A stretch of DNA of 55,115 bases from a virus, in the IMG/VR virus record IMGVR_UViG_3300021406_000003, positions 1 to 55,115 of that record, one strand, 5' to 3'. The notes under the pieces are model-generated. The model had not been told where the DNA came from. It saw only the letters and a list, made by a program, of their open reading frames with translations, and made no database searches. Below are positions 5,875 through 7,785 of this stretch, piece after piece. A program made the position numbers and the translations under genes. The stretch's first letter is position 1. Every line of letters begins with the position of its first letter.

Positions 5875-6101
5875 ATCGCGTGCTTATCCCCCAGCTTCCG
5901 CTGATAATATTCCCGAAGCGCCTCCCGCGTGGAAAGCGGCAGCGATGCCTCTCCTCGCTCGTAATCCTCAAGCCAATCCCGCGTCAGGCTCCAGCCGACC
6001 TCTCTCACCACGTCTTCCAAAGAAAGATTGAGCCCAATACGCAGCTCACGCCACCAAGAACGCTGATGATGAACCGCTTGGGGTGCCTCTGCTTGTCTCA
6101 T
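5871..6101 (-). CDS. XRE-like helix-turn-helix protein (76 aa)
   Basis: The segment LRIGLNLSLEDVVREVGWSL … RDWLEDYERGEASLP has the spacing of a Cro/CI-type HTH: an R-x-x-x-x-L-S-x-x-x-x-A/V turn, then the WLxxYERG helix that normally follows the recognition helix. It is coupled to the KGG-repeat gene upstream by a 4-nt overlap. It may control the late operon it begins. Confidence 0.6.
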   Translation of the reverse strand: MRQAEAPQAVHHQRSWWRELRIGLNLSLEDVVREVGWSLTRDWLEDYERGEASLPLSTREALREYYQRKLGDKHAI

Positions 6102-6415
6102 GGATGCTTTTCTTTGAGCGCTTTCTTCCCGGCTTCCAACATCGCTTTAATTTTCGCTCCGCCCTTTTCCCCGATCTTCTGATAGAAATCGGGCGGCTGA
6201 TTCTCTTTTACCTTGTTCCCGCCAATCTTGCCGATGAGGCGGTAGAAGTCGGGTCCCTTCGTGTTCCGAGTGGCAACCCCACCCATAGAACCGATCTTTT
6301 GGTAGAACTCTTTGCCGCGTTGCTTGGTCTTCTCGCCTCCACGGCGACCCGCCTCGCGCGTGGTCATCTCGCCGTACGAGGTCTCATCCTCATCTAAGTC
6401 TGAACTCTCTCCCAT
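6098..6415 (-). CDS. KGG-repeat stress-type protein (105 aa)
   Basis: Contains tandem copies of the KGG (YciG/GsiB-like) motif: EFYQKIGSMGG, DFYRLIGKIGG, DFYQKIGEKGG, plus a degenerate first repeat REAGRRGGEK. In bacteria these hydrophilic, probably intrinsically disordered repeats mark general-stress proteins. Here it is the first gene of the late leftward operon. Its ATG begins 6 nt after a -10 box with no Shine-Dalgarno, so the message is predicted leaderless. Confidence 0.8.
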   Translation of the reverse strand: MGESSDLDEDETSYGEMTTREAGRRGGEKTKQRGKEFYQKIGSMGGVATRNTKGPDFYRLIGKIGGNKVKENQPPDFYQKIGEKGGAKIKAMLEAGKKALKEKHP

Positions 6416-6459: not shown

Positions 6460-6490
6460 CAAAAAGAAAAACCCACATTTTGAGTGCGGG
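6460..6490 (-). terminator. Terminator of the RyR operon
   Basis: On the minus strand a GC-rich stem CCC(G)CAC/GTGGG, with one bulged G, encloses TCAAAAT and is followed by TTTTTCTTTTT. It lies between the RyR gene stop and the late-operon promoter, insulating the two. Confidence 0.65.
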
Positions 6491-6543
6491 CTTTTCCCTG
6501 TGAGAAAAAAGAACCGATGGTATGCTACGCCGACGATCTTTTT

Positions 6544-6921
6544 CTATGAGGCCGGCACTGTCCCTCTATCACCTCTGACAAGCGGCGTGAGCGCATGAAC
6601 GATGCTGGTGAAGATGCTGTCCTTGAGCCTCTGCTCTAGGGGAAGCTGGTCATAAGGAACATAGCATGGATGCTCTTTCTTGTCCGGGTCCTTGATCGGC
6701 CCGTACTTCCAACCATCCTGTGCTTTGCCTTTGAGCCAGTTCTCGTGCGACCCCGAAGGTCCAGCGTTAGGATTCTCGAGATGGAAGAGCACACCGTCGA
6801 TCGCACTCCGGACCTGCCAGGTGGGCGCGTCTTCCCACGCAGGCTGTGAGGCGTCCCCTAGCTCCTGGCAATATGCTCGGTTTGCTTCATGAACAATCCG
6901 AGCGATTCCCGGAATGGTCAT
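6544..6921 (-). CDS. RyR-domain protein (125 aa)
   Basis: Matches the bacterial and phage ryanodine-receptor (RyR) repeat: HENWLKGKAQDGWKYG, then PIKDPDKKEHPCYVPYDQLP, then helices ending IVHALTPLV. The conserved W-x(5)-GW-x-YG and HP-x-x-VPYxxLP blocks are all present. Family knowledge: RyR repeats are proposed nucleotide-ligand domains. It overlaps the Acb2-like gene by 4 nt, so joint action in sensing or sequestering immune nucleotides is a reasonable inference. Confidence 0.78.
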   Translation of the reverse strand: MTIPGIARIVHEANRAYCQELGDASQPAWEDAPTWQVRSAIDGVLFHLENPNAGPSGSHENWLKGKAQDGWKYGPIKDPDKKEHPCYVPYDQLPLEQRLKDSIFTSIVHALTPLVRGDRGTVPAS

Positions 6922-7319
6922 ACCGTGACCCCAATCCTTTCCGTGTGCGCGAGCTCAGGGGCAAGAGGCTCAAGCCGCGGTGCCTCAAACGTAATCGCTG
7001 AGTTCGCGATCATGACGATCTCGTTGAGGTCGGCAGCAAAGCTCTGTACCATGTCCTCAGCGGGGACGAGCGCATCAAGTCGCGTGAGTGCTCTATCACG
7101 CCGGCTCTTTGCATAGTCCGCCAAAGATTCACTTGCGGGAGGCTGCTCGGGAGCTGATTGAACAATCGCATCACGCATCTCCAAAGACGCTTCACGCAGA
7201 GCGAAAAGAGCAAGCGCGGACTTCTTAGCAGCCGCACGAATCGCGTTGCCCTTTAGCACTTGCTCGGGAGACCACGGATGATATTGGAAAATCTCGCTGA
7301 GGTTCTCCGGCGTTATCAA
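6918..7319 (-). CDS. Acb2-like predicted cyclic-nucleotide sponge (133 aa)
   Basis: Starts at TTG 7319, chosen because GGGGAG lies 8 nt upstream. The motif FQYHPWSPEQ at residues 11-20, followed by IRAAAKK, is the N-terminal hairpin of the Acb2/Tad1-type helical family. The second half SRRDRALTRLD … LNEIVMIANSAIT matches its C-terminal helix pattern. Known Acb2 proteins form hexamers that bind CBASS cyclic oligonucleotides and gcADPR. This protein has extra residues between the two blocks and a longer tail. Assignment is by motif memory and needs profile confirmation. Confidence 0.65.
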   Translation of the reverse strand: MITPENLSEIFQYHPWSPEQVLKGNAIRAAAKKSALALFALREASLEMRDAIVQSAPEQPPASESLADYAKSRRDRALTRLDALVPAEDMVQSFAADLNEIVMIANSAITFEAPRLEPLAPELAHTERIGVTV

Positions 7320-7323
7320 GCGG

Positions 7324-7449
7324 TTAGCTCCCCGTAGGATTAGGCGCTGAAGGAGCGGCGGCATCTTCTTTGGGTGCGTCGGCTGGCGGGACGGCGGGAA
7401 TCGCCGCGGTCTCTTCGCCTGGGTCAGGAGTCTTTTCAGTATCGCTCAT
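7324..7449 (-). CDS. Pro/Ala-rich disordered protein (41 aa)
   Basis: MSDTEKTPDPGEETAAIP and onward: low-complexity, acidic and probably unstructured. It is the first ORF of the Acb2-RyR operon and ends 4 nt before the TTG start of the next gene. It could act mainly as a translational coupler. The frame is open further upstream across a terminator-like hairpin, so the start is uncertain. Confidence 0.5.
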   Translation of the reverse strand: MSDTEKTPDPGEETAAIPAVPPADAPKEDAAAPSAPNPTGS

Positions 7450-7473
7450 GGCAGGCAGGATACCGCAGGCCAT

Positions 7474-7512
7474 GAAAAAAGCCCTCGTCGTGTGATTCGG
7501 ATACGAAGGCTT
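7474..7512 (-). terminator. Terminator or attenuator before the Acb2-RyR operon
   Basis: On the minus strand a 10-bp stem AAGCCTTCGT/ACGAGGGCTT (one G-U) with a 14-nt loop is followed by a T run. It is only 25 nt upstream of the leftward operon start. It either stops leftward read-through from the opposing region or attenuates the operon itself. Confidence 0.6.
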
Positions 7513-7557
7513 CGTGTCCACAACGCTCAACTTACTCATCGCAAAATAAGGAGCACC

Positions 7558-7785
7558 GTGCCTGTACCATATCCGCCCGATCCCAAGGAAGTCCTCCTGT
7601 CTGACATGGATCGCCAGGTCATCTTCCTCATCGCCGAGGGCCAGCGCGCCAAGGTCATCGCCGGCCTCCTCAAGCTCTCGCGCAAACAGCTCACGACCAT
7701 CTACGAAGACCTCCGCAAGAAGATCGGAACGCCCTCGTGGACCGGCGTTGCGGTGTGGGCCATCCGAAACGGAGTCATCAAATGA
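7558..7785 (+). CDS. LuxR-type HTH protein (75 aa)
   Basis: Start GTG 7558 chosen for AAGGAG 4 nt upstream. The whole protein is a GerE-like domain: LSDMDRQVIFLIAEGQRAKV, then IAGLLKLSRKQLTTIYEDLR and KKIGT…AVWAIRNGVI, matching the E/D-x-x-V-x-x-x-I-A-x-G, recognition-helix and AIxxGLI signature of LuxR regulators. First gene of the rightward accessory operon, so probable local regulator. Confidence 0.72.
   Translation: MPVPYPPDPKEVLLSDMDRQVIFLIAEGQRAKVIAGLLKLSRKQLTTIYEDLRKKIGTPSWTGVAVWAIRNGVIK

Follow-up and report, generated by a model that had tools for sequence, protein, structure and literature searches.

A predicted phage operon pairing an elongated Acb2-like hairpin protein with a RyR-domain protein, a candidate counter-defence module

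Organization of the locus

The stretch of DNA analysed here, hereafter the window, is the 55,115-nt virus record IMGVR_UViG_3300021406_000003. It carries genes for a terminase large subunit and a portal protein, and its source is therefore a tailed phage. Two overlapping minus-strand genes, each belonging to a known kind, are the subject of this work: the first encodes an Acb2-like protein and the second a RyR-domain protein of the RyDEP family (Table 1). The ATGA sequence shared by the stop of the former and the start of the latter, already reported in the first-pass annotation, suggests that their translation is coupled. The same annotation extended the feature from 6544 to 7449; the two ORFs are indeed present, but the Acb2-like ORF ends short of 7449, at 7364 or 7319. 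Its frame contains no start at 7449, which is instead an ATG of a small ORF that stops at 7324. This putative ORF, placed in another frame immediately upstream of the Acb2-like gene, has no family match in Pfam and PHROG searches, and its end contains what is presumably that gene's ribosome-binding site.

The likeliest start of the Acb2-like gene, judged from the sequence, is TTG 7319. A GGGGAG motif is located eight bases ahead of this codon. It is favoured because most hairpin relatives open just a few residues ahead of FxYH, in several cases with M-I-T.

The operon is closed by an intrinsic-terminator-like hairpin (−18.2 kcal/mol, z −4.4) that none of 200 shuffled sequences equalled. A terminator-like hairpin had been described upstream of the pair; a hairpin followed by a T-run does exist there, but it is the weaker of the two, given that 22 of 200 shuffles fold as well.

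Table 1. Features of the operon and of other genes noted in the window
Feature	Position	Strand	Remarks
Acb2/Tad1-hairpin-like protein	6918-7319	-	133 aa from TTG 7319; insertion of ~43 aa lengthens the hairpin
Same Acb2-like ORF, longer version	6918-7364	-	148 aa from ATG 7364
RyR-domain protein (PF02026, RyDEP family)	6544-6921	-	125 aa; H59, W62, H84, D101
ATGA stop/start overlap of the Acb2-like and RyR ORFs	6918-6921	-	4 nt
Small Pro/Ala-rich acidic ORF	7324-7473	-	49 aa from ATG 7473, 41 aa from ATG 7449
Intrinsic-terminator-like hairpin closing the operon	6464-6499	-	~45 nt past the RyR stop
Weaker hairpin upstream of the operon	~7474-7513	-	followed by T6
KGG stress-repeat protein	6098-6415	-	105 aa
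LuxR/GerE-type helix-turn-helix gene	7492-7785	+	better-looking start GTG 7559
TROVE-domain and VWA-domain protein	13776-15284	-	502 aa
TerC-family membrane protein	16176-17117
Second VWA protein	17150-18490

Several other genes of the window were noted. The gene just past the operon terminator encodes KGG stress repeats (PF10685, E 2.7e-6). Divergent from the operon is the LuxR/GerE-type gene (PF00196, E 5.3e-5, slightly below the cut-off), whose GTG start is preceded by AAGGAG. Further away, the TROVE/VWA gene (PF05731, E 4.7e-14; PF13519; phrog_850) encodes a phage-borne Ro60-like RNA-binding protein, and genes for a TerC-family and a second VWA protein are also present.

Association of RyR and hairpin genes in other viruses

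The linkage between the two kinds of genes was surveyed in 80 viral records picked solely by their RyR gene, by searching the Acb2_Tad1_hairpin family (PF24729) across the whole records. After removal of near-copies, 10 of the 15 independent hairpin matches were found less than 500 nt from the RyR gene, on either side, for 0.58 expected (P 7e-12, a value that assumes uniform placement although small accessory genes cluster); five of the 15 matches fall under the Pfam cut-off. The SSB genes of the same records, used as a control, were equally near in one of eight independent cases (Fisher P 0.019), and the control sponge family Tad2 was absent from all 80 records. The recurrent adjacency is seen in both gene orders.

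Two natural fusions exceed both Pfam cut-offs, namely SUFG_00048 of Sulfitobacter phage phiCB2047-B (188 aa; RyR 3.3e-10, hairpin 5.4e-8) and a protein of locus L007 (RyR 3.6e-12, hairpin 9.6e-7). Like the window pair, SUFG_00048 brings together a RyR domain and an Acb2/Tad1 hairpin; unlike it, SUFG_00048 is a single protein, with the RyR domain first and without such an insertion. A locus retrieved with the Acb2-like query rather than by its RyR gene (L111) carries a RyR gene ~250 nt downstream. The same locus, also sampled as L114, is the only one with a RyR gene nearby among 80 loci retrieved through typical hairpin genes; the remaining 79 contain no RyR within ~2.5 kb, and hairpin genes therefore function mostly alone. 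On the RyR tree the hairpin linkage is scattered, with at least seven changes on supported branches; this tree, in which 20 of 38 inner branches are open, has poor resolution and was used for the linkage scatter only. The pattern suggests that the RyR-hairpin pairing arose repeatedly.

Other arrangements were encountered in the same survey. A second type of RyR-adjacent hairpin protein, with a long N-terminal extension before PF24729, is encoded in L030 (2493-2954; hairpin domain 50.1 bits) and L011 (2408-3004). A Vibrio phage protein (L101, 2180-2836) has a Phage_gp49_66 domain (PF13876) fused to the RyR domain, so that RyR domains pair with further small domains too.

The ATGA coupling, the adjacency in both orders and the natural fusions would also be expected if both proteins bound the same ligand or formed one complex, acting together as one sponge with higher affinity for cADPR isomers. 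According to a 2025 review, Tad1, which has the hairpin domain in common with Acb2, does bind gcADPR (PMC12043709). On the other hand, the Acb2-like protein has the predicted layout of Acb2 without the beta-sheet of Tad1, and the same review attributes gcADPR binding to Tad1 and Tad2, whereas it gives Acb2, like Tad1, cyclic di- and trinucleotides as ligands and lists no gcADPR for Acb2 (PMC12043709). The earlier statement that Acb2 binds gcADPR is thus not supported by this source, and neither is the shared ligand proposed with it. Because of this division of ligands, two complementary ligands are likelier than a common one, and a shared ligand or complex is regarded as unlikely.

The RyR-domain protein

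The RyR protein scores 38.7 bits against PF02026, above the curated cut-off of 27.4, and is thereby assigned to the RyR/R12 domain, in agreement with the first-pass annotation. By sequence it matches solved RyR domains, PDB 35TM among them. Relatives are contained in 286 phage records; among 84,980 genomes of bacteria and archaea, genes of this kind were found at 10 loci, versus 192 stretches of viral contigs.

The phage RyR-domain defence evasion proteins, or RyDEP family (bioRxiv, May 2026; PMC13232231), act on 2'/3'cADPR either by cleavage or by sequestration. Nucleotide binding, mentioned as proposed for RyR repeats in the first-pass annotation, is now experimental for relatives of the window protein. 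In that preprint, none of eight assayed RyR homologs degraded the signals, six formed stable complexes and two formed none. Two homologs, one encoded by a Ruegeria phage and the other by a Pectobacterium phage, showed nanomolar binding constants and restored phage growth, the Pectobacterium-phage sponge being nanomolar for 2'/3'cADPR and protective against Thoeris (PMC13232231).

Like other members of the RyDEP family (PDB 35TM), the window protein is a stand-alone phage protein of the ~110-140 aa range with a RyR domain over the cut-off. All four named ligand or catalytic residues of RyDEP (H75, W78, H100 and D117) are present at identical spacing as H59, W62, H84 and D101, which are invariant across 13 aligned RyR proteins. 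Unlike the founding glycosidase, the window protein has an Ala at the position of Gln54 and is only 24% identical to RyDEP, compared with 56% identity to the Pectobacterium and 46% to the Ruegeria phage RyR proteins. The surroundings also differ: the window gene adjoins the Acb2-like gene, whereas the founding RyDEP gene sits between NARP1 genes.

The presence of both catalytic residues of RyDEP (H75 and D117) would allow the RyR protein to be an enzyme that cleaves 2'/3'cADPR to ADPR, with the Acb2-like partner taking other signals. However, the same dyad occurs in the Pectobacterium and Ruegeria phage proteins of the alignment, and none of the eight assayed homologs degraded the signals (PMC13232231). 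The higher identity to the Pectobacterium proteins and the replacement of Gln54 also argue against cleavage, and no NARP1 genes were recognised beside the window RyR gene on casual, non-systematic inspection. An enzymatic role is consequently quite improbable. Since non-cleaving homologs retain the same H/D dyad, the RyR protein more likely acts as a sponge, as judged from its relatedness to them.

The Acb2-like protein

The assignment of the first protein of the operon is less direct. It scores 14.2 bits against PF24729 (14.6 bits for the 133-aa form) and does not reach the gathering cut-off of 27. An independent hairpin profile was built from 70 distinct hairpin proteins of viral contigs, gathered through an alignment without the window protein; four sampled members of the hairpin set or seed alignment exceed the Pfam cut-off. 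This profile gives the Acb2-like protein 31.7-33.2 bits (E 2.9e-8 at 31.7, among the 4,751 ORFs that comprise all those of the window and of the 80 RyR loci), whereas the next unrelated ORF obtains 8.5 bits and none of 5,000 shuffles exceeds 12.3. Residues 1-45 account for most of the score. In a phmmer search of the same 4,751 ORFs, the first hits after the query itself are L017 (E 0.06) and L021 (E 0.22), both clear hairpin genes that adjoin RyR.

The alignment places a block of ~43 residues between two helices, with the flanking family motifs retained in order, FxYH...Q...R before the insertion and E-V-M-x-A-N-x-x-I after it. The two sequence blocks on which the first reading relied, YHPWSPEQ...AAAKK and RALTRLD...MIANSAI, are both found in this ORF, and its description as a hairpin relative of the Acb2 type that carries an unusual insertion is supported. 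An earlier alignment (A2), in which the insertion had displaced the second motif, was dropped in favour of A3 and A5. Among the well-conserved columns of the family, 13 of 26 are retained, and many of the lost residues map to the hairpin tip, which the insertion replaces. As half of the near-invariant residues have changed, including P16 and Y24 of the hairpin tip, the protein may bind ligands differently or not at all.

Direct searches with the protein retrieved no relative in viral contigs or phage records and no chain of note in the PDB, so that the relationship is visible through profiles only; NCBIfam gave no match. On the basis of the phmmer ranking, the independent profile and the motifs that flank the insertion, the protein is filed as a diverged relative within the hairpin superfamily PF24729 and not as Acb2 proper.

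Predicted fold of the Acb2-like protein

AlphaFold2 with an alignment (pLDDT 78.8) predicts three helices, a short one at the N-terminus (residues 4-10) and two long ones (21-55 and 66-110), a layout that is not fully independent given that the input alignment included hairpin relatives. This arrangement is the one described for Acb2, whereas Tad1 combines a beta-sheet with helices (PMC12043709). The top three Foldseek matches among 350,542 PDB chains all correspond to 7uq2 (T4 Vs.4, that is Acb2, with cGAMP), with a probability of 0.82-0.94 and weak E-values of 0.38-0.81. The VIA-align Z-scores for Acb2 (6.9-7.5) are level with those of unrelated helical bundles and were not taken as proof. 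A single-sequence AlphaFold model (pLDDT 61) matches generic helical bundles only and does not recover Acb2, and a search of a viral structure library with the predicted model returned nothing useful. A fold different from that of Acb2, which would have refuted the first reading, is thus not indicated by the alignment-based model and its top matches, but the single-sequence model does not show Acb2. Together with the weak E-values and the relatives in the alignment, this makes the fold consistent with Acb2 rather than proven.

As in Acb2 (T4 Vs.4, PDB 7UQ2; PaP2 Acb2, PDB 8H2J), a short N-terminal helix is predicted to be followed by two long antiparallel helices, and the hairpin domain is homologous. 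The window protein departs from Acb2 in the insertion, which lengthens both long helices, and in its changed near-invariant residues and sub-threshold Pfam score. The Acb2_Tad1_hairpin domain is also common to Tad1 (PDB 8KBB, 8SMD). Membership of Tad1 was rejected, as its N-terminal beta-sheet is absent and neither model contains a strand.

The first protein could instead be a helical phage protein without kinship to Acb2, the likeness being confined to its first motif. The sub-threshold Pfam score, the concentration of the profile score in the first 45 residues, the generic bundles matched by the single-sequence model and a weak PHROG match to a terminase small subunit (phrog_141, E 0.0053) all point in this direction. 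This is nevertheless very unlikely, given the independent profile score far over the shuffles, the retention of both motif ends (FxYH and VMxAN.AI) in order, the RyR-adjacent position typical of other hairpin genes and the top structural matches to Acb2. The terminase identity itself was rejected, the hairpin-family profile being far stronger.

Proposed role of the operon

With an Acb2-type relative overlapping a RyR gene, the locus most plausibly encodes a counter-defence pair, as the first-pass annotation had proposed. In its specific form, the favoured interpretation is that the operon probably co-produces a RyR sponge for 2'/3'cADPR and an Acb2-like sponge for cyclic di- or trinucleotides. 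Both signal-binding proteins would be made together from one operon. The RyR protein would hold 2'/3'cADPR, which signals in Thoeris and other TIR systems, in a pocket around H59, W62, H84 and D101. The Acb2-like protein would be a helical-hairpin sponge, oligomeric and with its hairpin elongated, and would hold CBASS-type cyclic di- or trinucleotides. Both signal classes would then be kept low and the effectors would not fire during infection, thereby protecting the phage. The extra hairpin length might alter oligomerization or provide a docking site for the partner protein.

A bolder and rather doubtful extension is that RyDEP-type RyR domains and Acb2/Tad1-type hairpins recur as a bifunctional sponge module, fused in some cases, against both Thoeris-type and CBASS-type signals; in this phage the lengthened hairpin would assemble with a RyR dimer into one multi-signal particle. 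A role of the pair in nucleotide or NAD metabolism of the phage, or in regulation, instead of immune evasion, as the binding of adenine nucleotides by the animal RyR domain (PMC13232231) and the feeding of an NAD-synthesis pathway by the founding RyDEP might suggest, has the slimmest chance of all, because the assayed phage RyR proteins counter Thoeris and the Acb2-like partner is related to immune sponges.

Significance

Phage RyR proteins were linked to immune evasion only in 2026. No paper containing both "RyR domain" and "Acb2" was found in the open literature, and the available text of the RyDEP preprint, supplements aside, mentions neither Acb2 nor Tad1 (PMC13232231). The elongated hairpin and the recurrent pairing or fusion of RyR and hairpin domains are therefore new with respect to the open literature, subscription papers and supplements aside, and priority is not certain.

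The lengthened hairpin offers a new variant for asking how sponges alter their ligand or assembly. The recurrent RyR-hairpin link, including the fusions, would indicate that phages package together sponges with distinct second messengers as targets, and the pairing makes it testable whether one operon or one fused protein blocks both Thoeris and CBASS. In the phage studied here, the operon probably silences two kinds of bacterial alarm signals at once.
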